Source of the DNA: Bordetella sp. LUAb4
GTDB lineage: Bacteria > Pseudomonadota > Gammaproteobacteria > Burkholderiales > Burkholderiaceae_B
DNA: 64,000 nucleotides
NCBI RefSeq assembly: GCF_021325795.1
Contig: NZ_JAHPZX010000010.1
Span: forward strand, 124,001-188,000
Direction of reading: 5' to 3'
The notes beneath the pieces are model-generated. The model ran no database searches and was not told the DNA's origin. It worked only from the letters and a program-made list of their open reading frames with translations. The position numbers were made by a program, and so were the translations under genes. Of the stretch, positions 39,958 through 53,653 are shown piece after piece. How positions within the stretch are numbered: position 1 is the stretch's first letter; the number at the start of each line of letters is the position of its first letter.

Positions 39958-41235
39958 GTGGTCAAGAAAATCGCAGTGTGTGGCCTTGGATATGTGGGCC
40001 TTCCGGTAGCCGTGGCGCTTTCCAAGCGCTTTGATGTGATCGGCTTTGATGTCGATAAACGACGAATCGAACGCCTCAAAGAGGGGGACGACTGGACCGG
40101 CGAGATCGAACGTCACCTGTTGATTGATTCTCCAATCCGCTTCACCGATAGCATCAAGGACGTGGAAGGCTGCGATTTCTTCGTGGTCGCCGTGCCCACC
40201 CCCGTGGACGAGAAGAACAACCCGGACTTCTCCCTGCTGGTGAAGGCTTGCCAGTTGATCGGCCCGGTCCTGCGCCCCGGCTGCATCGTCGTCTTTGAAT
40301 CCACCGTCCACCCCGGCGCCACCGAGGAAATCTGCGGACCGGAGCTGGAGAAAGCCTCCGGCCTGCGTTGCGGCATCGACTTCAAGCTGGGCTACAGCCC
40401 CGAACGGATCAACCCGGGGGACAAGGAACATCCGCTGGAAAAGATCGTCAAGATCGTGTCCGGCCAGGATGAAGAGGCGCTGGAAATCGTCGCCGGTGTC
40501 TACGAGAAGATCATCGACGCGGGTGTTCACCGCGCATCGTCGATCAAGGTGGCGGAAGCCGCCAAGGTGCTCGAGAACACGCAACGCGACATCAACATCG
40601 CGTTGATGAACGAGATGTCGAAGATCTGCGATCTGGTCGGCATCCGCACCTCGGAAGTGCTGGAAGCCGCCGGCACCAAGTGGAATTTCCTGCGCTTCAC
40701 GCCGGGTCTGGTCGGTGGCCACTGCATCGGCGTCGATCCCTATTACCTGACGTCCAAGGCGCAGGAGCTGGGCTATCACCCCGAAGTGATTCTCTCGGGC
40801 CGCCGTATCAACGACGGCATGGCCAATCACGTCGCCTCGCGCGTGGTGCAGACGCTGGCCCGCAACGGCCGCCTCAATGCCCAGACCAAGGTCGGCATCC
40901 TGGGCATGACGTTCAAGGAGAACGTGCCCGACATCCGCAATTCCAAGGTGGTCGATCTGTACAACGCCCTCGGCCAGTACGGGATTTCTCCGGTGGCTTG
41001 CGACCCCATGGTCGACAAGGCCCAGATGGAGCACGAGTACGGCATCAAGCTGGTCGACCGTGCGCATTTCAACGACATGGACGTGCTGATCCTGGCCGTT
41101 CCTCACCGCGAAACCATGGACTCGATCTGGGAAGACATGCCGGATCTGGTCAAGCGCGGCGGCATGGTGTGCGACTTGAAGTCCGTGCTGGACAGCAGCC
41201 GCCTTCAGTCTGACGTTTTGTACTGGACGCTGTAA
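39958..41235 (+). CDS. tviB: UDP-N-acetylglucosamine 6-dehydrogenase (Vi capsule precursor)
   Basis: 425 residues from GTG 39958 with GAGAGG upstream. The NAD-binding motif GLGYVGLPVAVALSKRF opens the protein; the catalytic cysteine is Cys256 in GLVGGHCIGVDPYYL and the conserved lysine lies in AEAAKVLENTQRDINIALMNE. This TviB/WbpO-type enzyme oxidises UDP-GlcNAc to UDP-GlcNAcA in the cytoplasm, the first step to Vi-antigen-like amino-uronic acid polymers. It is the first gene of the capsule locus. The normal next enzyme, the C4 epimerase TviC, is not encoded after it; the next start comes 40 bases downstream and belongs to a TviD-like gene. Confidence 0.92.
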   Translation: MVKKIAVCGLGYVGLPVAVALSKRFDVIGFDVDKRRIERLKEGDDWTGEIERHLLIDSPIRFTDSIKDVEGCDFFVVAVPTPVDEKNNPDFSLLVKACQLIGPVLRPGCIVVFESTVHPGATEEICGPELEKASGLRCGIDFKLGYSPERINPGDKEHPLEKIVKIVSGQDEEALEIVAGVYEKIIDAGVHRASSIKVAEAAKVLENTQRDINIALMNEMSKICDLVGIRTSEVLEAAGTKWNFLRFTPGLVGGHCIGVDPYYLTSKAQELGYHPEVILSGRRINDGMANHVASRVVQTLARNGRLNAQTKVGILGMTFKENVPDIRNSKVVDLYNALGQYGISPVACDPMVDKAQMEHEYGIKLVDRAHFNDMDVLILAVPHRETMDSIWEDMPDLVKRGGMVCDLKSVLDSSRLQSDVLYWTL

Positions 41236-41274: not shown

Positions 41275-43755
41275 ATGGTTGCTTTCACGACCGCTCCCAT
41301 TGGAACTTGCCGAATTCATACCCCCTTGCGGGGTGCGGTAGGGCGCTACCCGATCAAGCTGCAACTGGGGCGCAACTACGGTTTCGTGCATACCAGCACG
41401 GAGGCGCTGCAACAGGCGCGCTTCATGTTCGGCAAGGGCGATATTCCCGTCGCCGTTCAAAGGCTGGTTTTCCGGCCATCGAATGGCGAGCAGGCCCGTC
41501 GCGGGACGCATAAGCCGGCCGACCTGTACATCGTCGAGCTGTCTTCGCGCAAGCTGCTGACGATCGACGGCCACCCCATCCAATCCAATTATGTGGGTCG
41601 CTATTTCAGCGAGTTCTTCGCTGATCGCACGCGCACTCGCACGTTCTGGTCCATGGCCGTCGCCGACAAGCTGGCGGAACGGCGCGCCTGGCTGGATCAG
41701 GATCCGGTATTCAAGAGCCTGCCGGCGGACGACAAGGCGTTGCTGGCCCGCATCGTCAAGCGCGATCTCACGGACGATGAGATCGAGAGCGAGATGCGCG
41801 AGATCGTCGACCTGCTGGGCAAGAACAAAGTGGTCTTCGTGACCCACGTCAATGCCTTGACGCCCGACAACGTCACCATCGAGCAGCGCGAGCAGTTGAT
41901 CGCTGCCGTGACGACGGCGGCGCAGCGCATCGGCGTGCCTTGCTACGATCCCACGCCCTTGATGAACAAGATTGGCCAGGCCGATGCCTTGGAAGACGGC
42001 GGGCTGGACCTGACGCATTACTCGGAAGCGTTCTCTGAACGCCTGTGCGCCGAGTGGTACAAGAATTTCATGCGGCCGAAGATGAGTGCCTCCACGCCGC
42101 AGTCGTCGGCGCCGAAGCTGACCGCCGACGAAAGTGCCGAACGCATCGAGAAGATCTGGGACGCGGGCAATCTGCGCGAGGCCTCGCGGCGTGTGCGCGA
42201 TGTGCTGCGCCGGCATCCCGCGCTGCCTGATCATGTGCTGCTGATGGCGCGTATCCAGGAAGAGCTGGGCGACTACGAAGGATCGCTGGCGCTGCTGGGG
42301 CCCGCCGACGGTGCGCTGGCGTCGGGCAGCAAGGCCGAACAGATCCTCATGCGCAATCACTTCAAGCTTGGGCATCACGACCTGGCGTACTCGCTGGCGG
42401 CCGGCTTGCTGGGCGACGAGAACGAAACCCCGGAAATCATACGCATCGCCGCGGTGTCCGGTGCCCAGCTGGGCAATGGTGATGAAGCACTGGGCAAGTG
42501 GAAGCAGTTGTTCCGTATCGCCGCGCCCACCGATGCGTGGGCGGTCGAAGCCGCCGACACCGTGCTGTCCATGCTGCAGGCTAGTGGCGACATGGAAAGT
42601 GTCATGCGCTGGGTCAATGAAGTCCGCCAGACGCTGCCGTCGCACGGCCGCAGCTTCACCATGCTGTGGCGCGACCGTCTGGTGTCTGGCGATCGCGCGG
42701 GGCTGCGCGCCCTGGCCGCCGAATCGCCTGTGCTATCGGAAAAGGAAGCGCTGGAATTGGTCAAGGAAGCGTCGTGGCGCGGTAGCGTCATGGCAGCTTG
42801 CGCCTTGGCGGTTTCTTGCGGACTGAACAAGAGCGACAACGAAGAGATCTCTTCCTGGTTGCAGGGGCAGGCCGCGGCATGGGCCGACGAAGGCGCCCGC
42901 GCGCTGGAAGAAGGGCGCCTGCGCGACGCCGCGGACATGATCTGCGGACATCGCCTGCTTGCGCCCGGCACCTTGACCAGCGTGCGTGCGCAACGCGCAT
43001 TCGAGCGCGCGCTGCGCTTGGGCGTGCGCGCCGCTTTGCTGGCCGGCAACCACAAGGAAGTGATCGAACTGACGGATCTGGCGCTGGATACCCAGATCGA
43101 CTTCCCGGAACTCGATGCCATGCGCGGCCGCGCCGCCGATGCCCTTGGCGACAAGAAAACCGCCATGCACCACCTGGAGCAGGCAGCGGCGGACGATTCC
43201 GCCCAACTCAGCACGCAGCTGTACTTCGCCCGGGTGGCGTTCAACGGCGGCTGGTTTGGCGAAGCCATCGATGCCTACAACGCCGTGCTCGCCCATGCGT
43301 CCGCCGACCAGGCGGCGAAGGACGAAGCGCAGCGTCAGCTGGCCAGGCTGGGACCGCGTGCGATCCGCGCTTCGCGGGAAATTCTTGCCGCGGGTGATCA
43401 CAAGGCCGCCTGGCAGTTGTTGGACCGTATCGGACAGTCGTGGCCGGATATGACGGAAGTTCCCCACGAGAAGCGCCGTATTCTCGGCGCCCTGTATGCC
43501 GAGGCCCGTGCGTTGGAGCCGTCCAGCACCACCGAGCGCCTGGACCTGGGCGAACGCATCCTGGCGCTGGTTCCGGATGATGCCATCGGCCTGCGTCTGG
43601 CTGCCGTCGGGGCGATGCGTCTGCACCGCTTCGAGCAAGCCTTGCCCTACTGGCAGCGGCTCAACGAGCAATCGGAGGATGGCAAGCAATTCGAGCATCA
43701 GGTCAAGCGTTGCCAGATCTGGATCGAGAAGATCAACCGGAGGAAGGCCGCATGA
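41275..43755 (+). CDS. tviD: TviD-like capsule protein: SGNH-like domain plus TPR repeats
   Basis: 826 residues, close to the 831 of Salmonella TviD. An N-terminal domain of about 270 residues begins APIGTCRIHTPLRGAV (possible nucleophile region) and ends with the D-x2-H motif in GGLDLTHYSEAF, as in SGNH/GSCFA-type esterases and acetyltransferases. From about 285 to 820 the protein is helical with repeated 34-residue TPR-like units. TviD is linked to O-acetylation of Vi, so acetyl transfer to the capsule is the likely job, with the TPR part as scaffold. GGAG lies seven bases before the start. The gene overlaps the next by four bases (ATGA). Confidence 0.8.
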   Translation: MVAFTTAPIGTCRIHTPLRGAVGRYPIKLQLGRNYGFVHTSTEALQQARFMFGKGDIPVAVQRLVFRPSNGEQARRGTHKPADLYIVELSSRKLLTIDGHPIQSNYVGRYFSEFFADRTRTRTFWSMAVADKLAERRAWLDQDPVFKSLPADDKALLARIVKRDLTDDEIESEMREIVDLLGKNKVVFVTHVNALTPDNVTIEQREQLIAAVTTAAQRIGVPCYDPTPLMNKIGQADALEDGGLDLTHYSEAFSERLCAEWYKNFMRPKMSASTPQSSAPKLTADESAERIEKIWDAGNLREASRRVRDVLRRHPALPDHVLLMARIQEELGDYEGSLALLGPADGALASGSKAEQILMRNHFKLGHHDLAYSLAAGLLGDENETPEIIRIAAVSGAQLGNGDEALGKWKQLFRIAAPTDAWAVEAADTVLSMLQASGDMESVMRWVNEVRQTLPSHGRSFTMLWRDRLVSGDRAGLRALAAESPVLSEKEALELVKEASWRGSVMAACALAVSCGLNKSDNEEISSWLQGQAAAWADEGARALEEGRLRDAADMICGHRLLAPGTLTSVRAQRAFERALRLGVRAALLAGNHKEVIELTDLALDTQIDFPELDAMRGRAADALGDKKTAMHHLEQAAADDSAQLSTQLYFARVAFNGGWFGEAIDAYNAVLAHASADQAAKDEAQRQLARLGPRAIRASREILAAGDHKAAWQLLDRIGQSWPDMTEVPHEKRRILGALYAEARALEPSSTTERLDLGERILALVPDDAIGLRLAAVGAMRLHRFEQALPYWQRLNEQSEDGKQFEHQVKRCQIWIEKINRRKAA

Positions 43756-45812
43756 ACTCCGCACTGGCTGCCGAACAAGAGAACGATTTATCCGACCTCA
43801 GATCGGTTCATGCTCAGTTGGAGGAGATTGTCGCGGCGTCCCCGCGTGTGCAGCTGGCGCAGGGCAACCTGCCGCGCGCTATCGTCCTGGCCCGCGAGCA
43901 TATGGCGGACACCAAAGTCCGCTTCCTGCTGCTGCGGTTGAAGGAGCTGGCGGGCGTCAACGAAGGGATGTCCGAGCAGTGGCAGGAGCTGTTGCGCGAG
44001 TGCCCGGATGACCTTCAGGTCGTCCGGTATAGCGCGACGCGCCTCGTCAAGGAAAGGCATGTCGACGAAGCCCTGGCCCTGATCGAACGCCATGTGCCGG
44101 AGATGAGCGGCAACTGGGACATGCTGTTCGCCCGGGCCAAGCTGCTCAACGACATCCGCGCTTACGAGCAGTCGGATGATCTGTTCCGCCGGCTCATCGC
44201 GCAGCGCGAAGATCGCAACGTGCGTATCGAGTTCGCCAAGCGCCTGCGCAAGCGGGGCCTGCTCGCCGATGCGTTCGAGGTCATCGAACCCGTCATGGGC
44301 GTGCTCGCGCCCGGCAGCAAGGCGGCCGAGCTGGCGAGCGGGCTGGCCAATGACTATGCGTTCTACCAGGACTTCGAGCCCAAGGACGAACTGTCTGGCC
44401 AGGACATCCGGATCGTGTCGATGAAGCACGCGATCCTGCATTTTCGCAATCGCCGGATCGCCGAGCAGCCGCCGGAACGGCCCGTGTCGATTGCGCTGGT
44501 GACCGGCAGCCTTGGGCCCGGCGGCGCCGAGCGCCAGTTGACGCGGCTTGCCGGGGAGCTGAATCGCTTGGCGGGCACCGACGAGCCTTTGCCGACGCCA
44601 ACGAGCTTGCGGCCGGGCGATGTCGCGGTGCTGGTGAAGCAGCACACCGAACCTTCCGGAACGGGCAAGAAGCAGGGTTTGAATTTTTTCCTGCCCGTGC
44701 TGCTCAACGCCCAGATTCCCGTGACGGAAATCAACCGGCTGCCGCCGGTCTCGGTTTCCCATCAGGTCGTGCCCGATCCGGGCTTGACCCGTTTGCTGGA
44801 ACAACTGCCGCCCCCGGTTCACTACGGCGTCACGCGGCTCACGCCGCACTTGCGCGCGAACGAGTTCGACGTCGTCAGCCTGTGGCAGGACGGCACGTGC
44901 CTGTTCGGGGCGCTGGCGGCCCTGCTGGCCGGCGTGCCCACGATACACCTGGTGTTCCGCGGGCTGCCGCCCAATATACGCAAGGACCGCTTCCGCGAGG
45001 AATATCCGGTGCTGTATCAGGCCCTGGCACGCGTGCCCGGCGTCTCATTCGCCAGCAACAGCCTGGCGGCCGCGGAAGCCTATTCGCAGTGGCTGGGCAT
45101 TCCACTGGAGCGCTTCCACATTCTGTACAACGGCGTCCCCGAACTGACCACCGGTTCTTCGGAAGAAGATGAGCGCAAGTGGACGGAATTCGAAGCCAAT
45201 ACCGCTGATGCCACCGAAACGATAGGGGGCGTGTTCCGCCTGGAGCCCGACAAGCGTCCGCAACTGTGGATCAAGCTGGCCGCGCAATACCTCAAGGATC
45301 GCCCGCAGGCGCGCTTCGTCATCGTCGGCGATGGCCGCCTGCACGACATCATCGTCGGCTTGGCGGATGAACTGAAGGTGACGGAACGGCTCTTGCTGGT
45401 GGGCCTGTCCAATCACGTCGGTTATTGGTATTCGCGCATGGATACCAGCGTGCTGTTATCGAGGTTCGAAGGTTTGCCCAATGTATTGATCGAAGCCCAG
45501 CTGCTGGGAGTGCCGGTGGTGTCCACACCGGCGGGCGGCGCGGGTGAATGCTTTGTGCAGAACGTGACAGGTCATCTTATCGATGACCTCGACCATCCGA
45601 ATTTGAACGAAGCCTGCGGCAAGATCGCGTCCATGGTGGACAAGGTCCGAGGCAATGATGTGTTGCGGGAGCATTGCCGGCAACGTGCGCGCGACTTGTT
45701 TTCGCTGAGCGCGATGCTGGAGCGGTTTCTCGGTCTGTGCGTACCTTTTATCCGCACGCCCGAAAACGACGAACGTATCGATCTCGGGCCGATGCGTCTG
45801 ATGGAGGCCTGA
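43752..45812 (+). CDS. tviE: Vi-type capsule glycosyltransferase (GT4) with TPR-like N-terminus
   Basis: 686 residues from ATG 43752, overlapping the tviD stop and preceded by GGAGGAAGG. The first 240 residues or so are helical and TPR-like. The GT-B catalytic part starts at ALVTGSLGPGGAERQLTRLAG and contains the E-x7-E motif in SRFEGLPNVLIEA followed by GVPVVSTPAGGAGE, as in retaining GT4 enzymes. It is longer than Salmonella TviE (578 residues). Position after tviD and before the export genes supports a role as the capsule polymerase or its essential partner. The sugar donor should be a UDP-amino-uronic acid. Confidence 0.85.
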   Translation: MNSALAAEQENDLSDLRSVHAQLEEIVAASPRVQLAQGNLPRAIVLAREHMADTKVRFLLLRLKELAGVNEGMSEQWQELLRECPDDLQVVRYSATRLVKERHVDEALALIERHVPEMSGNWDMLFARAKLLNDIRAYEQSDDLFRRLIAQREDRNVRIEFAKRLRKRGLLADAFEVIEPVMGVLAPGSKAAELASGLANDYAFYQDFEPKDELSGQDIRIVSMKHAILHFRNRRIAEQPPERPVSIALVTGSLGPGGAERQLTRLAGELNRLAGTDEPLPTPTSLRPGDVAVLVKQHTEPSGTGKKQGLNFFLPVLLNAQIPVTEINRLPPVSVSHQVVPDPGLTRLLEQLPPPVHYGVTRLTPHLRANEFDVVSLWQDGTCLFGALAALLAGVPTIHLVFRGLPPNIRKDRFREEYPVLYQALARVPGVSFASNSLAAAEAYSQWLGIPLERFHILYNGVPELTTGSSEEDERKWTEFEANTADATETIGGVFRLEPDKRPQLWIKLAAQYLKDRPQARFVIVGDGRLHDIIVGLADELKVTERLLLVGLSNHVGYWYSRMDTSVLLSRFEGLPNVLIEAQLLGVPVVSTPAGGAGECFVQNVTGHLIDDLDHPNLNEACGKIASMVDKVRGNDVLREHCRQRARDLFSLSAMLERFLGLCVPFIRTPENDERIDLGPMRLMEA

Positions 45813-47033
45813 TTGCCCGGCAATATTTGCGCGACCCCAAAAATAATGAACGTGATGATGAATTGCCCGGCCGCCGGCGCGCGGCCGGATTTCCTGAAAC
45901 GCCTGGCGGCCCTGTTGATGCTCGCTTGCGCCGGCCTGGCGCTGACGGGATGCCAGTTGCCCCGTTCGGGTCCGATGCTCAGTGAAATGGTGGGCGCGCA
46001 CGACGACAAGGATGTCGTGGTGGTCCCTGTCTCGCGGCAGAACGCGATGCAAAGCAATGTGCCAGAAGTCCTGGACTTCCCCGCTCGCTACCGCGACTCG
46101 ACGAATGCCGGCTTCGATCGGCTGGTGCCTGGCGACGGCATCAATGTCACGGTGTGGGAGCGCGATGGCTTGGGGGTGTTCGCCGCCAATCCGTCCGGCG
46201 TCAGCGACTTGGGCAATCAGGAAATAGACCGGGCCGGCAATCTCTATCTGCCGATGCTGGGTAAATTCCGTGCCGCCGGCATGACGCTGGCGCAGTTGCA
46301 TGACGCCGTGGTCGCCCGCTTGAGCAAGCTGATCGTCGGTTCCGATGTCAGCGTCACCCGTGTCGCCGATGCGCGCGGGCAGATGGTCACCGTGCAGGGC
46401 AACCTGACCAAGCCCGGCCTGTACCCCATCACGCAGACCACCCAGCGCTTGAGCAGCGCGTTGGCGCAGGCCGCGCCGGTGCAAACCAATCCCGAAGCGC
46501 TCGTCATCACGCTGCGGCGCGGGACGGAGGTCACCTCCTTGCGGCTGTCCGATATCTACCGCAACCAGGACAACGACATCCTGCTGCACGCGGGCGATGT
46601 CATCACCGCCCACGATTCGCGTGAATTCCTGACCGTGCTGGGCGCGGCGGGCACGCAAGGCCGCGTGGCGATCAGCAAGCGCAACTACAGCGTGCTGGAT
46701 GCCTTGGCGGATTCCAAGGGCCTGGACGACAAGACGGCGGACCCCCGCTCGGTCTTCCTGTTCACGCCCGCCAAGCCCGGCACCCAAGGCAAGCCGGATC
46801 AGTTGCCTGTCGTTTATCAATTCGACCTGACGCGTCCGGAGCAGGTGGCGTTGGCGGGTCAATTCAGCGTACGCGAGGGGCAGGCTATCTATATTTCGGA
46901 TGCACCGTTTACCCAGGTACAGAAGGTGTTGTCGGCATTCCGCGTGACGATGAGCGCGGGCTTCAGCGCGACGCGAGCGATCGATCAGGATTCCGGCGGC
47001 GGCTCCAGCACCAACAACAACGTTACTCAATAG
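45813..47033 (+). CDS. vexA: Outer-membrane polysaccharide export lipoprotein (Wza/VexA type)
   Basis: 406 residues if the TTG at 45813 is used: it directly follows the tviE stop and has GGAGG five bases upstream. ATG 45846 is an alternative with a poorer site. The lipobox LALTGCQL marks a lipoprotein signal. The body has a polysaccharide-export domain (RLVPGDGINVTVWERDG, GNLYLPMLGKFRAAGMTLAQL) and SLBB-type repeats (VTVQGNLTKPGLYPIT; FLTVLGAAGTQGRVAI). It forms the outer-membrane exit pore of an ABC-dependent capsule export system, together with the VexD adaptor. The final residues are asparagine/serine/glycine-rich. Confidence 0.9.
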   Translation: MPGNICATPKIMNVMMNCPAAGARPDFLKRLAALLMLACAGLALTGCQLPRSGPMLSEMVGAHDDKDVVVVPVSRQNAMQSNVPEVLDFPARYRDSTNAGFDRLVPGDGINVTVWERDGLGVFAANPSGVSDLGNQEIDRAGNLYLPMLGKFRAAGMTLAQLHDAVVARLSKLIVGSDVSVTRVADARGQMVTVQGNLTKPGLYPITQTTQRLSSALAQAAPVQTNPEALVITLRRGTEVTSLRLSDIYRNQDNDILLHAGDVITAHDSREFLTVLGAAGTQGRVAISKRNYSVLDALADSKGLDDKTADPRSVFLFTPAKPGTQGKPDQLPVVYQFDLTRPEQVALAGQFSVREGQAIYISDAPFTQVQKVLSAFRVTMSAGFSATRAIDQDSGGGSSTNNNVTQ

Positions 47034-47040
47034 CGCGTAG

Positions 47041-48381
47041 ATGAGTAACGAGGATAGGATCAAAGGGTGGCGTTCGCGCCGGAAAGAGAGCAACTACGCG
47101 GTAGGTTCGGGCGTCGCCGCCTGGCGCCTGGACCTGACGGCCTTGTTCGACGCCGACGCCTCGGTGGCGGTGGTGCTCAAGCAGCTGGCCGCCCGGCTGC
47201 AGGGGGAGCCGCACGGTAGCGTGGCCGCCCGCCGCGCGGTGTACGACGCCCTGCAGACCGAGTTGGACGAAGAGATCAATCGTAGTGGTCACGATGATCT
47301 GGCCGCCGACTTCGCCCGGCGCCGTCTGCGCATCGTCGTGCGGCTGCTCGAAAACGATATCCGCGCGGGCGTGGCGGTGTTCGAGCCGGGATATATGCCG
47401 GCCAAGCTGCTGGCCGAAGATGAGCGCTTGTGTGCGGCCATCGCGCGACGGGTCGAGCGGCGCAAGACCGAAGAGGCGCAGAGCGCCCGCCGGCACGCAT
47501 CGCGCAATGACATCGCGATGGAGATCGAGCTGTTGCCGGAGGAAGTCGGCGATCTGGCGATCCTGCGCGACCGGATGCGTGGCTTGCATGACGGTTATCG
47601 GGCGGGCGACGTGGACGAGGGTCGGCCCCGTCTGCGCACGTTGTTGCCGCTGTTCATCTATCAGTTGCACGTGATGCATGGCGAAAGCCGGATCGCCTTG
47701 CTATGGGCCCTGGTGGGCCCGGTCGTCCTGCTGACGCTGATCTCTTCCCTGTATTTCCTGATGGGTACGCACTACATCCTGGGGATGGACGTGCCGACGT
47801 TTTCCCTGTTGGGCGCGACCACGTGGATCATGTTCCGGCAGATCATCTTCCGCAGCAGTACGGGGTATGTGTCCGCGCGGGCGATGTTGAACTTCCAGGG
47901 CGTCACGCCGCTGATGTGCGCGCTGGTACAGGCCATGATCTACGTGACGGTGTACCTGGTGGTGTTCGGCGTGCTGATCACCGCCGGCCACGCGCTCGAT
48001 CTGATCACGCTGCCGGAGAACGTGGCCGCATTCGTACTGTTCGTCGTGCTGATGGGCGTGGGCGGCGCGGCCATGGGGGTATTGTTCGGCTCGCTGGCGA
48101 CGGGGTGGCATTTTTTCCTCAGGATGGCGCCCGTGATCGAGCGGTTTCTGCAGATTTTTTCCAGCGTGTTCTTCGTTTCGGAGCAATTGCCGGAACAGCT
48201 GCGCTCTTATTTCCTGTGGTCGCCGTTCGCCCACGGCATGCAGCTCTTGCGTTCGGTGTACTTCACCAGCTATCCCTCGCAGAACGCGAGCCTGAGTTAT
48301 TTCCTGACTGCCCTGGTATTCCTGGCAGTCTTCGCCCTGGCCGCGGAGCGTCTTGTCCGCAGCCAGGTCCAGCCGATGTGA
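47041..48381 (+). CDS. vexB: Capsule ABC transporter permease with a large N-terminal extension
   Basis: 446 residues. The last 245 or so form an ABC-2-type permease with six hydrophobic segments, starting LFIYQLHVMHGESRIALLWALVGPVV and ending with WSPFAHGMQLLRSVYF, matching KpsM/VexB proteins, which are about 260 residues in total. The first 195 residues are charged, helical and without a membrane span or known motif, and have normal coding character. The permease should form the inner-membrane channel for the undecorated or lipid-capped chain. The next gene would supply its ATPase, but that protein lacks ATPase motifs, so the extension may be functionally linked to that oddity. Confidence 0.85.
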   Translation: MSNEDRIKGWRSRRKESNYAVGSGVAAWRLDLTALFDADASVAVVLKQLAARLQGEPHGSVAARRAVYDALQTELDEEINRSGHDDLAADFARRRLRIVVRLLENDIRAGVAVFEPGYMPAKLLAEDERLCAAIARRVERRKTEEAQSARRHASRNDIAMEIELLPEEVGDLAILRDRMRGLHDGYRAGDVDEGRPRLRTLLPLFIYQLHVMHGESRIALLWALVGPVVLLTLISSLYFLMGTHYILGMDVPTFSLLGATTWIMFRQIIFRSSTGYVSARAMLNFQGVTPLMCALVQAMIYVTVYLVVFGVLITAGHALDLITLPENVAAFVLFVVLMGVGGAAMGVLFGSLATGWHFFLRMAPVIERFLQIFSSVFFVSEQLPEQLRSYFLWSPFAHGMQLLRSVYFTSYPSQNASLSYFLTALVFLAVFALAAERLVRSQVQPM

Positions 48382-48390
48382 GCGACGACC

Positions 48391-49110
48391 ATGATCCATC
48401 TCCACGGCGTAACCGATGAACCCTATGCCTTCGGCGACAAGCAGGCGCTGCTGTCCAATGTCGACATCGACATTCCGGTGGGGCGCTATGCACTGCTATC
48501 GCCGGCGCCCGAGCTGCATCGCCAGCTGATAGACGTGATGTGCCGCTTGCGGCCGCCACGGCAGGGTTTCGTGACGCACGACGGCAGCGTGTCGTGGGCG
48601 ATCGGACGGCAGGGTTTCATACGCGGCAAGGCTACCGGCCTGAACATCATCGAGTTCGTCGCCGATCTGTACGAGATCGACGCGGATGCGACGTTCGAAC
48701 TGGTTGCGGATCTCATCAGCGATCCCAGAGTCCTGGCGCGGCCCATGGAACATTGGCCGCTCTACCTGCGGCAGGAATTCTCGTTCGCGCTGGCGTTGGC
48801 ACCCGCTTTCGACGTCTATGTCATCGAAGGGGCCATCCCTTTCGAGCCCTGCCGTTTCACCCGTCTATGGCTGTCGCTGTTCGAAGAACGGCTGATAGGC
48901 CGGACGCTTATTTTTTCCAGTTATCGCCAGAACCAGATGGCAGATTACTGCCTCAAAGGCCTGATTTATGAACGAAGCACCCTCAGAATCGAAGACGACC
49001 TCGACCAGTGCATCCGCAAATTCCCCCCAAGACGATCGAGGAGTGAATCCGGCAGCGCAGGCGAGGACGTCCTCGGAGGCAGCTTCGGGGACGGCCAGCT
49101 CGGCTTCTGA
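48391..49110 (+). CDS. vexC: VexC/KpsT-type ABC protein with degenerate nucleotide-binding motifs
   Basis: 239 residues, collinear with KpsT/VexC ATPases (start MIHLHGVT; strand VSWAIGRQGF, then GKATGLNIIEFVADLY). The catalytic motifs are absent: the Walker A position (about 36-44) reads LSPAPELHR with no G-K-S/T; the signature region (about 122-131) reads WPLYLRQEFS in place of SSGM; Walker B (141-147) reads DVYVIEG, lacking the D-E pair; and the H-loop histidine is Tyr in SSYRQ near 178. The frame is open with no frameshift that restores them. It is thus probably a non-hydrolysing relative. Its last 47 codons overlap the vexD start. Confidence 0.75.
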   Translation: MIHLHGVTDEPYAFGDKQALLSNVDIDIPVGRYALLSPAPELHRQLIDVMCRLRPPRQGFVTHDGSVSWAIGRQGFIRGKATGLNIIEFVADLYEIDADATFELVADLISDPRVLARPMEHWPLYLRQEFSFALALAPAFDVYVIEGAIPFEPCRFTRLWLSLFEERLIGRTLIFSSYRQNQMADYCLKGLIYERSTLRIEDDLDQCIRKFPPRRSRSESGSAGEDVLGGSFGDGQLGF

Positions 49111-50257
49111 GGGATCATCGGAAATCGAGCGCCGTCGCCGGGAGCGCCAGTCGTCGCTGCGCGGCCGCCGCCGTTATCGCTGGATCAACGCGGTCATTGT
49201 CGTCGCGCCGGTCGTGCTGGCCCTGGTCTATGTATTCCACGTCGCCACGCCGCGCTACGAAGCGGAGTCGCGCTTTTTCGTGCAGTCGAGTTCCGGCCAG
49301 CAGGGCGGAGGCGCGGCCAATCTGCTTACCACCGGCAATATGGGCGGCATGCTGGGCGGTTTCGTGGATGGATGGGCCGTGACCGACTTCCTCAAGTCGC
49401 GCGACTGCATGCGGCAGCTGGATCAGAAGATCGGCTTGCGCCGTTACCTGGTCAACAAGGGGCTGGACCCGGCCAACCGTCTGGCGGAAGACGCCAGCGA
49501 AGATGAGCTCTATCGCGCGTATCAGGCGTCGGTCACGGTTTCCTTCAACGTGCTGGAGCAGATCGACGTTCTGCGTGTGAGCGGGTTCTCGCCGCAGGAT
49601 TCGGAGACCCTGTCGAAGGCCTTGATCAGCCTGGCCGAAGACTTCGTCAGCCAGATGAACGAGAAGGGCGTGGCCGACAAGTTGAAAGTGAGCCAGGAGT
49701 CGCTCACCCGGGCGGAGCAGAAGGCACGCGATGCACGCGATGCGCTGACGGCCTGGCGCACGGCCCACGGCAATATCGATCCGACGGCGACGGTGTCGAT
49801 GCTGTTGAATCTGTCGGGCCAGCTCGAAGGAGAGCTGAGTAGCGCGCAGATCAATCTGGACAAGATCCGCGCGCTGGGCAATAAGGATCATCCCATGCTG
49901 CGGCCTGCCGAACTGCAAGTCGCGGCGCTGCAGAAACGGCTGGTGTCTTTGCGGCATCGCCTGAGCGGACAGGGCACCACGGAGGCGACGATGCTCAAGT
50001 CCTATGAGGGGCTGCGCAATACGCAGATGTTCGCCGAGTCCAACCTGACGCTGGCGCAGCAGTCTTATCAGCAGGCCATGGTGGATACGCTGAGATTGCA
50101 GCGCTATCTGTCCATCATCGCGCAGCCCGTGCCCACCGACCGGCCCAGCAGCCCGCGCCTGGGTATCCTGTTGCTGGAAGCGCTGGCCCTTGGTTTCGTG
50201 CTGATGTTCATCTTCCGCATCGCGCTGGCTTTGTTGAGGGGGCTACGTCATGGTTGA
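48968..50257 (+). CDS. vexD: Capsule export periplasmic adaptor (KpsE/VexD, PCP family)
   Basis: 429 residues from ATG 48968. The first 55 residues are a serine/alanine-rich, probably disordered tail, then an arginine-rich patch before the first membrane span INAVIVVAPVVLALVYVFHV. A long periplasmic coiled-coil part follows (LKVSQESLTRAEQKARDARDAL and later), and the second span, IFRIALALL, is at the C-terminus. This two-span layout is that of polysaccharide co-polymerase proteins that bridge the ABC transporter and the outer-membrane pore. The start lies 143 bases inside vexC in another frame; a GTG near 49042 with CGAGGA upstream is an alternative that would shorten the overlap. Confidence 0.88.
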   Translation: MNEAPSESKTTSTSASANSPQDDRGVNPAAQARTSSEAASGTASSASEGSSEIERRRRERQSSLRGRRRYRWINAVIVVAPVVLALVYVFHVATPRYEAESRFFVQSSSGQQGGGAANLLTTGNMGGMLGGFVDGWAVTDFLKSRDCMRQLDQKIGLRRYLVNKGLDPANRLAEDASEDELYRAYQASVTVSFNVLEQIDVLRVSGFSPQDSETLSKALISLAEDFVSQMNEKGVADKLKVSQESLTRAEQKARDARDALTAWRTAHGNIDPTATVSMLLNLSGQLEGELSSAQINLDKIRALGNKDHPMLRPAELQVAALQKRLVSLRHRLSGQGTTEATMLKSYEGLRNTQMFAESNLTLAQQSYQQAMVDTLRLQRYLSIIAQPVPTDRPSSPRLGILLLEALALGFVLMFIFRIALALLRGLRHG

Positions 50258-52292
50258 TATGGCTATCGAAGATCGTCCTGGGAATGGGCTTGTAAGTCCG
50301 GGGGTAAGTCCGGGGGTAAGTCCTGACGCAAGTCTTGACGCAAGTCCTGGCGCGGGTTCCGCCGCGGATTCCGGCTCGGCGGGCGCCGCCGCGTCAGCCG
50401 ACGCCACGGCCATGGCCGCTTTGCTCGATGTCATCAAGGCTATACGCGGCGCGGCGGATCCTGGCAGGGAAATGCCCCGGCTTGCCGCCGCGCTGGCGCA
50501 GGCGCGGCCGGCCAATGGGCGGCGCGAGATCAAGCGCCTGCTTGTGTCTCCTTTCGTGAAGGAAGGGGCGTTCGCGCCCGCCATCGCCGCGCTCGACATA
50601 CTCGTGGACGCCTACCCGTCGCACGCCGACGATCACCGTATGCTGGCGAGCCTGTTGGGACGGACGGAACAGTGGGATCGCGCCATCGCCCAGGCCGACA
50701 CCGCCGGCGCGATAGAACCCGATGCGGCGGTGCTGCAGGGCGCGCGGATTCAGCTGCGCTTGCAGGCGGGGCGGGTGGCCGATGCGGCGGCCGTTGCGCG
50801 GGCCACGCTCGGCCTGGTCGAAGGGGCTCGGCGCAATTCGTCCGGCGCCGACGTATCCGTCTGGATGCTGGCATTCATGCGCAACGGCGATACCGCCGAG
50901 GCAGCGGAAATCGCCGCGGCGCTGGATCCTCAAAAGCTGCCCAACGAACGCGTGGCGACGATGGCCGTGCGTGCCTTGCTCGAGGATGGCAGGGTAGGGA
51001 CTGCCGTGTGGCTCGGCGCCGCCGCCTTGAGCGCGGGTCACGATTGCGCGGCCTTGCGCACCAGTCTGGGCCAGGCTTATCTCAAGCGCGGTAGCGAGGA
51101 AGACCGCAAGGTGCATGCGCTGGCGCAGTTCGAGGCTGGCCTGGCGCTGGCGCCGACGGACGTGCGCCTGCTGTCCTTGCACGGCGAAACGCTGTTGCGC
51201 GCCGGACGCTACAAGGCGGCCTTGGCGCCTTTGAAGCAGGCCGTCGAACTGGCACCGGACCTGGAGCAGACGCGGGGGCTCTATGCGCGCGCGCTGCGTT
51301 ATTCCATGCAGTACGGCGAAGCCGCGGACCAGATGAAGGCGCTGCTGGAAAAATCCCCCGACAAGGTGCTGTGGCAGCGCGCCACCATCGGTGCGCTGTC
51401 CCAGGCCGGCCGCAAGGACGAAGCGCACGCCCTGTTCAAGCTGTACGTGGCGAAGCGAGGTGCCCAGCTTCCAGAGACCTTTCAGGAAGCGCTCGCGCAA
51501 CTTGAAGAACGGCTCGATACGGCGCCCATACCGCGGGCTCGCTTCGACTGGGCGTGGTCGCTGCGTGGCGATACCACGATCGACCGTGCCGAGTGGGAGC
51601 GCAAGGCACGCTGGGGCCATTTGATCGATCACCTGCTGTTCGATTGGCTCGAATGCCGTGAGGACCAGGTCGAAGAGGCGATGACCGTGCTTGGCGACCT
51701 GGACCGTGGCGAACGTTTCTTCGCGCCGTTGCTGGCCGCCGGCCGGGGCGTCGTGGTGGCCACGGCCCACGTCGGCCCCATGTACGCGGGGCTGATGGCG
51801 CTGGAGTTGCTGGGCATTCCGTCACGTTGGCTCGCCACCGCGCCGACCATCGCCCAGAGCAGCTATGCGCCCGCTTTGATCTCCACCGCCGACCAGACCG
51901 AGGCCCAGGTAGCCAAGGCTTGCCTGCGCGCGCTCGGATCGGGTTACGTGTTGTGTCTGGCGATCGACGGTGCCGCGAACCCGGCCGCGCCCCGTACGAC
52001 CTTCGAAGGACAGGATGTCACCTACTCGAGTTTCGCGGCGCATATGGCGCATCGCCTCGGCGTGCCATCGGTGTTCTATGCCCCGCGCTGGGAAGACGGT
52101 CACGTTACGTACACCCTCGAAATGCTTCCCGCGGCCAAGCCGGGCGAAGATGCGGAGGCTTATGCGCAGCGCTGGCAGCAGGCTTATTTCGAACGGCTCA
52201 GGGAACACCTGGCCGGGCCGCCGGAGAATCTGCGCATGAGCGGCGGCATCTGGCGGCACGTGCAGCCGGCGGATCGATCCGCGTTGCCCTAG
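50250..52292 (+). CDS. vexE: VexE-like protein: TPR region plus LpxL-type acyltransferase domain
   Basis: 680 residues; ATG 50250 overlaps the vexD stop. Residues 15-35 carry a short tandem repeat (VSPG/ASLD), about 90-400 are TPR-like helices, and about 430-670 match the lysophospholipid/lipid A acyltransferase fold (RWGHLIDHLLFDWLE, GRGVVVATAHVGPMYAG, IDGAANP). LpxL enzymes use H-x4-D/E; here the histidine is followed at +5 by tyrosine (HVGPMY), so catalysis is uncertain. In Salmonella, VexE is needed to attach the acylated terminal sugar that anchors Vi at the cell surface. The locus position supports that job here. Confidence 0.8.
   Translation: MVDMAIEDRPGNGLVSPGVSPGVSPDASLDASPGAGSAADSGSAGAAASADATAMAALLDVIKAIRGAADPGREMPRLAAALAQARPANGRREIKRLLVSPFVKEGAFAPAIAALDILVDAYPSHADDHRMLASLLGRTEQWDRAIAQADTAGAIEPDAAVLQGARIQLRLQAGRVADAAAVARATLGLVEGARRNSSGADVSVWMLAFMRNGDTAEAAEIAAALDPQKLPNERVATMAVRALLEDGRVGTAVWLGAAALSAGHDCAALRTSLGQAYLKRGSEEDRKVHALAQFEAGLALAPTDVRLLSLHGETLLRAGRYKAALAPLKQAVELAPDLEQTRGLYARALRYSMQYGEAADQMKALLEKSPDKVLWQRATIGALSQAGRKDEAHALFKLYVAKRGAQLPETFQEALAQLEERLDTAPIPRARFDWAWSLRGDTTIDRAEWERKARWGHLIDHLLFDWLECREDQVEEAMTVLGDLDRGERFFAPLLAAGRGVVVATAHVGPMYAGLMALELLGIPSRWLATAPTIAQSSYAPALISTADQTEAQVAKACLRALGSGYVLCLAIDGAANPAAPRTTFEGQDVTYSSFAAHMAHRLGVPSVFYAPRWEDGHVTYTLEMLPAAKPGEDAEAYAQRWQQAYFERLREHLAGPPENLRMSGGIWRHVQPADRSALP
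50292..50351 (+). repeat. Five 12-base tandem repeats in the vexE 5' region
   Basis: Units 50292-50303 and 50304-50315 are identical (GTAAGTCCGGGG). 50316-50327, 50328-50339 and 50340-50351 are variants (GYAAGTCYTGRC pattern). Each unit adds four residues in frame. Confidence 0.85.
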
Positions 52293-52384: not shown

Positions 52385-53653
52385 ATGAATGCGAAGATGA
52401 ACAGGATGCGCTGGCTGCTTGCCTGCGCCGTGGTATCCGGCCTGGCGGTCGGCGCAGCGGCGAACGCCGCCAGTGCTGCCCGTGGGTCCAGCGCTACGAG
52501 AGAAACCAGTGCTGCCGGTGCCAGCGAATCATGCAAAGTCGCGGACCAGCAATGTCCCTTCGTGTCATCGCTGCTGCAGCAACGTGAAGGTTACGGTGCC
52601 AAGGCGACGGGCGGCCTGGGAGGCCAGGTTGTCGAAGTCACATCCGACCAGGACTCGGGACCCGGCACCTTGCGGGCCGCCTTGGAGCATGCGAAGAAAG
52701 GGCCGACATGGATACGCTTTGCTTCTGACCTGACCATCACGCTGGACAAGCAGTTGCGCGTGCCCTCGAACACCACGGTCGATGGACGCGGCAGGAAGGT
52801 CACCCTGCTGGACGACGGTCTGGGCGTGTACGGCAGCACCAACGTCATCCTGACGCATGTCACGATAGACGGCCGCCTGAAGCGATTCACCCAGGCGGTG
52901 AACGTGGCCAACGACTGCCGCGATGTGTGGGTGGACCATATGGATCTGTCACGCATGTCCGATCGGCTGCTGAATGTGAAGAACGGCTCGACCGATGTCA
53001 CGGTATCTTGGAATAAATTCCATAACTCAAACAAGGTGATGTTGCTCAACAACATTACTTCCAAGGATCTTTTCAAGAACTACGAACGCGACAGGATTGC
53101 CCGCGTGACGGTGCACCACAATTATTTCGTCGACACGATGCAGCGCAATCCGCGCGCGCAGTTCGGCACCTTCCATCTGTTCAACAACTTGCTGGAGAAC
53201 TGGGATTTCTACGGCATGAGTTTCAGCCTGCAGGCGCGGGCCCTGGTCGAAGGCAATATGTTCAGCAATTACGCCCAGCGCAGGTGCACGGAGCCTACTT
53301 TTTTTCCCACGACGGAGGGCGTGAAGGCCAACTATTGCAACTACATCCCGGGCGCGCCCAAGCGTAGCGCCTTGGGCAATGGCGAATCCGATCGGGAGAA
53401 CTACGAGCGGTCTAAGGGGCAGTATGGCTACAAGCACGACTACCTGGCGTCGCTGCGTCTGAGGGACAATCTGTACTTGGGGGATGCCAAGCCGGCATTG
53501 GAAGACCATCAGGCCGACGAGGTACCCGCGCCGCCATACTGCTATGGATACGAAAAGGCGACCCCGGAGCTGGCGGAAAAAATCCGCAAGTTCGCCGGCA
53601 ATACCTCCGAGACCACGCCGGTATTCACGCCGCGCACCGGGGTGTGCCCCTGA
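52385..53653 (+). CDS. vexL: Periplasmic polysaccharide lyase (pectate-lyase fold, VexL-like)
   Basis: 422 residues with a Sec signal MNRMRWLLACAVVSGLAVGAA. The body is a parallel beta-helix lyase: GGQVVEVTSDQDSGPGTLR, RVPSNTTVDGRG, then the PL1-type core DVWVDHMDLSRMSDRLLNVK followed by VTVSWNKFHNSNKVML. In Achromobacter a lyase of this kind, VexL, cleaves Vi antigen and acts in the periplasm during export. The gene is last in the capsule locus, 92 bases after vexE, so the enzyme probably trims or clears misdirected capsule. A plant-pectin role is less likely because no uptake or other pectin genes are near. Confidence 0.85.
   Translation: MNAKMNRMRWLLACAVVSGLAVGAAANAASAARGSSATRETSAAGASESCKVADQQCPFVSSLLQQREGYGAKATGGLGGQVVEVTSDQDSGPGTLRAALEHAKKGPTWIRFASDLTITLDKQLRVPSNTTVDGRGRKVTLLDDGLGVYGSTNVILTHVTIDGRLKRFTQAVNVANDCRDVWVDHMDLSRMSDRLLNVKNGSTDVTVSWNKFHNSNKVMLLNNITSKDLFKNYERDRIARVTVHHNYFVDTMQRNPRAQFGTFHLFNNLLENWDFYGMSFSLQARALVEGNMFSNYAQRRCTEPTFFPTTEGVKANYCNYIPGAPKRSALGNGESDRENYERSKGQYGYKHDYLASLRLRDNLYLGDAKPALEDHQADEVPAPPYCYGYEKATPELAEKIRKFAGNTSETTPVFTPRTGVCP

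Follow-up and report, generated by a model that had tools for sequence, protein, structure and literature searches.

Capsule export of the ATP-binding cassette (ABC) type is understood as being run by ATP hydrolysis in proteins of the KpsT/VexC type, the nucleotide-binding domains (NBDs) of the exporter. What, then, can be the role of a VexC whose sequence keeps none of the catalytic motifs? The question is raised by a locus of Bordetella sp. LUAb4, contained in a stretch of 64,000 nucleotides (NCBI RefSeq assembly GCF_021325795.1, contig NZ_JAHPZX010000010.1, positions 124,001 to 188,000 of the forward strand), here called the window, whose own numbering is used for its features. Its vexC gene very probably encodes a pseudo-NBD, and the comparisons presented below make it reasonably likely that this protein has been retained beneath the permease VexB, where it would serve export without being its motor. 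The gene and the positions of its lost motifs are as follows:

48391..49110, + strand: vexC, encoding the putative pseudo-NBD VexC (239 aa, ATG to stop), a VexC/KpsT homologue
48490..48525, + strand: Walker A position, residues 34-45, reading ALLSPAPELHRQ; the P-loop is absent
48592..48642, + strand: Q-loop region, residues 68-84, SWAIGRQGFIRGKATGL; Trp/Gly framework retained, Q-loop position occupied by Arg78
48742..48774, + strand: ABC signature position, residues 118-128, PMEHWPLYLRQ; EHWP invariant in 67/67 rows of the alignment described below
48805..48840, + strand: Walker B position, residues 139-150, AFDVYVIEGAIP; Glu146-Gly147 instead of Asp-Glu
48901..48936, + strand: H-loop position, residues 171-182, RTLIFSSYRQNQ; Tyr178 instead of His

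A sequence-only reading of the window had reported that the catalytic motifs are missing from an intact frame of normal length, and both observations were borne out when VexC was set in register on KpsT. No G-x4-G-K-S/T is found at the Walker A position; the Walker B segment reads DVYVIEG, with Glu146 replacing the Asp and Gly147 the catalytic Glu; a WPLYLR-like stretch stands where KpsT has the signature SSGMR; the H-loop reads SSYR, the His having become Tyr178; and the D-loop is also lost. The VexA, VexB, VexD and VexE homologues that flank the gene are all full-length. Two other positions call for a less strict reading. The Q-loop position is Arg78 in all 67 VexC rows, compared with Gln in ten and Glu in three of 13 intact KpsT-class proteins, and since these three have a Walker A, the change should weigh less as a loss. 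The KpsT tyrosine at what we take to be the A-loop position aligns with Pro11 of VexC and is not counted among the losses, an aromatic residue being found close by in 49 of the 67 rows.

The protein appears to have descended from a KpsT/VexC-type ABC ATPase, with homology across the whole NBD. A profile of 42 VexC relatives (the window protein and 41 named contig loci, out of the 67 rows) gave as its best PDB match the solved KpsT, entries 8tsh/8tsi, which presumably belong to the KpsMT paper reporting the KpsT E151Q mutant, with residues 1-213 aligned to 1-217 at an E-value of 5e-18. Among the hallmarks of functional ABC ATPases, the clade lacks Walker A, the signature, the Walker B Asp-Glu pair, the H-loop His and the Q-loop Gln. 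None of the 42 members matched the Pfam model ABC_tran at an E-value of 1 with the HMMER filters on, and the window VexC had no match to the VexC equivalog NF011724 (model cut-off 313 bits) at an E-value of 0.01, its best model being TagH at 21 bits. Against NF011724, a Mesorhizobium pseudo-VexC (locus L068) scored 25 bits, this being its best model, and the one at locus L058 15.7 bits. An AlphaFold model of VexC computed on the 42-row alignment reached a mean predicted local distance difference test score (pLDDT) of 43.7 and a predicted template modelling score (pTM) of 0.40.

The relatives came from three sources: a single scan of genome contigs (44 loci), a set of 151 genomes of the family, 24 of which carry a pseudo-VexC, the window's own genome included, and a plasmid collection, in which seven close records stood among the 20 matches listed of 300 and three of the seven were entered. 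The 67 aligned rows correspond to 54 distinct proteins, some genomes being present in two collections, and they span Achromobacter, Bordetella, other Burkholderiales and Mesorhizobium plasmids, with 36-97% identity to the window VexC. Walker A, SSGM, the catalytic Glu and the H-loop His are absent from every row. What had been taken for a single odd protein belongs instead to a conserved clade whose permease partner is enlarged, and the homologues with intact motifs in related strains that would have spoken for an isolated accident occur in none of its rows. Among the 54 distinct proteins, the catalytic-Glu position is Gly in 53 and Ala in one, that of the H-loop His is Tyr in 52 and Asn in two, that of the Walker B Asp is Glu in 51 and Asp in three, and the Q-loop position is always Arg. 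Forty-nine columns are invariant from Mesorhizobium through Achromobacter, and these include EHWP and Arg78, inside the lost motifs. Because a one-residue gap immediately before Walker A is common to all 67 rows and the 15 pseudo-VexC rows placed in the tree form one group with support of 100/100, a single origin of the motif loss is the simplest reading. In Caballeronia pedi LMG 29323 there are two loci (L058 and L061), each with a pseudo-VexC, and on the plasmids of Mesorhizobium nodule isolates (L068 and L070) the pseudo-VexC and long VexB genes lie near genes for AMP-binding, acyl carrier and NusG-like proteins.

The reference for the pattern of the loss was a set of 69 columns in which 12 or all 13 of the intact KpsT-class proteins agree. 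The eight Walker A columns among them (G41, N43 to T49) survive in 0-2 of the 67 rows, SSGM, the catalytic Glu and the H-loop His in none, and the Walker B and D-loop Asp in three each. Ten positions, namely G63, S72, W73, G76, G83, G87, D148, F163, F171 and C194, are kept throughout (67/67). The loss thus appears selective for catalytic residues, the split being clear, if not perfect. Selection on the gene was estimated on 20 of the 67 rows, hand-picked to span the set. The median ratio of nonsynonymous to synonymous substitution rates (dN/dS) is 0.142 for vexC (codons 1-190; 189 of 190 pairs usable), lower than in all five partners: 0.215 for VexA (165 of 190 pairs), 0.224 for VexB, 0.192 for VexD, 0.263 for VexE and 0.275 for TviE (17 rows, 127 of 136 pairs). 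Sequencing error and a pseudogene were excluded as explanations, given the loss in 67/67 rows and the dN/dS of vexC.

The surroundings of vexC are those of a Vi-type (VexE-bearing) capsule operon, with TviE, VexA, VexB, VexD and VexE homologues in one operon:

39958..41235, + strand: UDP-sugar dehydrogenase at the TviB position, named by position
41275..43755, + strand: 826-aa protein upstream of TviE, at the TviD position, named by position
43710..45812, + strand: TviE-like glycosyltransferase, 924 bits, above the 733-bit cut-off of one Vi TviE model
45813..47033, + strand: VexA-like outer-membrane polysaccharide export protein, 164 bits to the VexA model, below cut-off
47041..48381, + strand: VexB, ABC-2 permease of 446 aa; the KpsM model (257 positions) matches residues 204-435 with 61 bits, below cut-off
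47041..47640, + strand: N-terminal extension of VexB, about 200 aa, beginning MSNEDRIKGWRSRR; no Pfam family above cut-off
48968..50257, + strand: VexD, co-polymerase of the BexC/CtrB/KpsE family, 429 aa, 200 bits to the KpsE-family model, below cut-off
50250..52292, + strand: VexE-like protein, 870 bits to the Vi VexE model, below its 1200-bit cut-off
52385..53653, + strand: pectate-lyase-like protein at the VexL position, named by position

A P-loop pattern was found in 0/9 proteins of the operon, and the idea of an ATPase hidden within it was rejected. In Achromobacter denitrificans, VexL is a Vi depolymerase (PMC9597891). The vexC and vexD genes overlap in different frames by 143 nt (48968-49110), and in 18 Burkholderiales rows inspected it spans 137-143 nt; many VexC tails, not all, finish in GQ(L/F)G(F/L/V)-like residues.

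The enlarged partner is VexB, which exceeds 350 aa in 66 rows, two from Mesorhizobium included. The window protein has the permease domain in a chain much longer than the ~260-aa KpsM, and KpsM models have no counterpart of the N-terminal extension, which is conserved in Burkholderiales and partly in Mesorhizobium. Near the start of 61 of the 66 VexB proteins lies the pattern N[EKQD][DEQK]R[IL]xxWR, represented in the window by positions 47041-47082; L058 and L061 have near variants, and L060 and the two Mesorhizobium proteins are without it. The six-frame translations of the loci (2.06 million residues, duplicates included) contain the pattern 74 times, 62 of them in the matched VexB frame; by our own reading of sequence and place the remaining 12 matches would be either additional copies of VexB or VexD starts, the latter in the genomes G900, G659 and G1077, introduced below. 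It is found in 0/69 VexD rows of the first table, and a profile comparison of VexB and VexD N-termini returned a 14-residue match only (probability 52, E-value 1.5e-4). The NEDRIxxWR element starts VexB in most motif-less systems and VexD in three Walker A-bearing ones (L108, L109 and L114); it is apparently rare and confined to vexB and vexD in the loci examined. In Paraburkholderia metrosideri (L059, 4385 and 4571), the VexB has its NDDRIxxWR element twice.

Whether VexE-type operons always carry such a VexC was addressed in several searches; those of the order and the phylum scored seven candidates per genome for pseudo-VexC and two for VexE, and an absence in them is not proof. VexE and pseudo-VexC coincide in the same three of 399 genomes of the order, and VexE, pseudo-VexC and long VexB in the same seven plasmid records; two further records match VexE weakly (27-28% identity over about one third of its length). 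In a sample of the phylum, VexE was found in four of 398 genomes, two of which (G900 and G659) are without pseudo-VexC, and a third locus of this kind (G1077) turned up among 199 genomes of the family of G900 and G659. The VexC genes of these Walker A-bearing loci lie as follows:

L108, 12871-13569: Walker A-bearing VexC
L109, 13523-14221: Walker A-bearing VexC
L114, 9468 onward: Walker A-bearing VexC

Like the window, these loci have TviE, VexA, VexB, VexD and VexE homologues around VexC; their VexB frames are short, spanning 288-318 aa before a start is chosen, against the 446 aa of the window VexB. Walker A is present in all three VexC proteins, of which those of G900 and G659 have NF011724 as best model (133 and 119 bits). 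The catalytic Glu, SSGM and H-loop His do not vary among the 13 KpsT-class proteins. In G900 the catalytic Glu has become Asp and the H-loop His Arg, with SSGMR as the signature; G659 has Gly for the catalytic Glu and SSSMR for the signature and retains its H-loop His; G1077 retains the catalytic Glu and SSGMR and has Arg at the H-loop. All three have His at the Q-loop position. A half-way state is one possible description of them. These changes may have arisen independently of the full loss, because in the tree the three proteins and the pseudo-VexC are not grouped, the KpsT group is weak (37/11) and long branches meet.

If VexC does not hydrolyse ATP, the operon might be driven from outside, might have acquired a VexC with a new task, or might no longer work. 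An ATPase acting in trans had been listed among the options of the sequence-only reading: another NBD (KpsT, Wzt or a promiscuous ABC ATPase) would energise VexB, with VexC as an accessory. The second capsule ATPase for which a search of this genome had been advised does exist: about 65 kb upstream of vexC, at roughly C1:106644-108041, the genome encodes a KpsT-class protein that has Walker A. It lies in an export set having its own permease (L115 7260-16232, that is C1:105260-114232: a Poly_export protein, the 280-aa permease, the ATPase, a UDP-GlcNAc 2-epimerase and a dehydrogenase). Among the 24 genomes with a pseudo-VexC, 14 hold a KpsT-class ATPase, seven a Wzt/RfbE-type one only, and in three neither was found, the classes resting on scores, Walker A text, a tree (without the ATPases of G000, G062 and G098) and a KpsT query. 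The score-based search took 76 candidates per genome and missed a Wzt-type protein of G098 later recovered by the KpsT query, which covered ten genomes, eight of them from the ten without a KpsT-class hit (G059 and G063 being outside). In the three genomes without a KpsT/Wzt-class find (G002, G016 and G031) the best match to this query, pseudo-VexC aside, scored 52, 58 and 66 bits, on a scale where the KpsT of G075 reaches 309, the query's own gene (G081) 486 and Wzt-type proteins 107-121. G002 is a single contig of completeness 100 and holds TviE, VexA-E and VexL homologues. With neither class found in three of the 24 genomes, of which one is complete, the clade as a whole cannot depend on a dedicated NBD in trans. 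A generic ABC ATPase of promiscuous habit could still conceivably energise VexB; as a whole, energisation in trans is judged quite unlikely.

Nor would the protein need to be a mere relic of an ATPase if its old pocket had become a new site, for a lipid-linked primer, a sugar nucleotide or a non-canonical nucleotide, with which VexC would sense substrate and gate VexB. The invariance of P40, R78, E120-H121-W122-P123, R127 and E129 in 67/67 rows, the presence of H43-R44 in 65/65 Burkholderiales rows and a dN/dS below that of the five partners all suit this idea; conservation alone is nevertheless no proof of a ligand, a protein-protein surface fits the same pattern, and the AlphaFold model is unusable at its pLDDT. 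Such neofunctionalisation is considered unlikely. That the operon exports no longer, another of the options raised earlier, has in its favour the loss of the supposed motor's catalytic motifs and fits badly with other observations: purifying selection acts on VexC and its five partners (dN/dS of 0.14-0.28 across the six genes), vexA-vexE homologues are kept across Alcaligenaceae and Burkholderiaceae and, in another gene order, in Mesorhizobium, and A. denitrificans is named as a Vi producer (PMC9597891). In addition, a cytotoxicity screen of A. xylosoxidans GN050 yielded mutants in genes for which a part in Vi capsule synthesis has been hypothesised (PMC9430717), and a pseudo-VexC is present in a different genome of the species, that of strain B_1 (L050). 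Dead or decaying export is thus hardly credible.

The remaining option, a structural or regulatory pseudo-ATPase, is the one favoured by the evidence, and a retained pseudo-NBD serving export can be pictured as follows. VexC has kept fold-core positions and the Trp/Gly framework around the Q-loop, a region that faces the permease in ABC transporters, and the residues known to bind and hydrolyse ATP are gone. It would most likely be a structural and gating subunit beneath VexB, in a VexB-VexC-VexD-VexA conduit in which translocation would not be powered by VexC. The TviE synthesis machinery would sit at the VexB mouth, with the ~200-aa extension perhaps keeping it there, and chain synthesis, which we regard as the likeliest drive, would push the lipid-anchored polymer through a channel that is itself passive, much as happens in synthase-dependent polysaccharide secretion. 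We infer the docking under VexB, the export activity and the passive nature of the channel alike, and the last step, in which synthesis is the drive, is put forward tentatively, with more doubt than conviction.

Several points weigh against this proposal. An ATP-free ABC exporter would break precedent, because the Walker B mutation E151Q in KpsT abolishes detectable polymer secretion (PMC11041684) and S. Typhi vexB, vexC and vexD mutants, the vexC mutation being an insertion, retain Vi in the cytoplasm (PMC3448643). The literature consulted offered no experiment demonstrating such export in a strain known to possess this VexC. The docking under VexB is read from the sequence, the AlphaFold model supporting nothing, and for the VexB extension, which has no family match, the part of a synthase dock is a guess. 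A new binding site is an equally possible use of the newly conserved residues EHWP, Arg78 and His43-Arg44; several KpsT-conserved positions with no known catalytic role (K12, Y14, G19, R52, D58 and R136) have changed too; and the window genome is itself among the 14 that possess a KpsT-class ATPase.

Comparison with known systems helps to place the exporter. With the KpsMT-KpsE systems it shares the homology of VexC to KpsT over residues 1-213 and the presence of a permease, a co-polymerase and an outer-membrane export protein as neighbours, and it differs from them in the missing ATPase motifs and in a permease of 446 aa against the 257 positions of the KpsM model. In heterodimeric ABC exporters with a degenerate site, the partner NBD keeps one site active. 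These transporters also keep an impaired NBD in a working machine (PMC12038006); unlike them, the window operon contains no P-loop NBD that could be the intact partner, and its pseudo-NBD is without Walker A or signature. A more distant likeness is offered by BcsE of cellulose secretion, whose N-terminal domain has a predicted RecA-like fold with a diverged Walker A and is kept in polysaccharide secretion (PMC7439463), although it belongs to another family, has another role and is not an ABC NBD beside a permease. The Vi exporter of S. Typhi is of the same operon type as the window, judging by the Vi-model matches; by description its VexC is an ATP-binding protein (PMC3448643), whereas the window VexC does not match NF011724. 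Vi export is likewise described as ABC-driven (PMC9597891), and in the literature searched (titles, abstract beginnings and passages, with partial coverage of Vi) no description of a motif-less NBD in a capsule exporter was found.

A strictly conserved motif-less clade, in species related to a named Vi producer, means that this pathway either can do without ATP hydrolysis by the cognate NBD or draws on an unrecognised energy source in its place. It may be, though the odds appear to lean the other way, that the clade consists of ABC capsule exporters without an ATP motor, in which the NBD is a conserved scaffold, the permease has acquired a domain coupling it to the polymerase and synthesis drives export. 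If true, they would link ABC-transporter-dependent polysaccharide secretion to the synthase-dependent kind as an evolutionary bridge, with the VexE loci that have Walker A and altered catalytic residues as possible intermediates. The clade would also provide a motorless exporter for structural comparison with KpsMT, and it makes the question of what pushes a long polysaccharide through its channel testable in natural strains.
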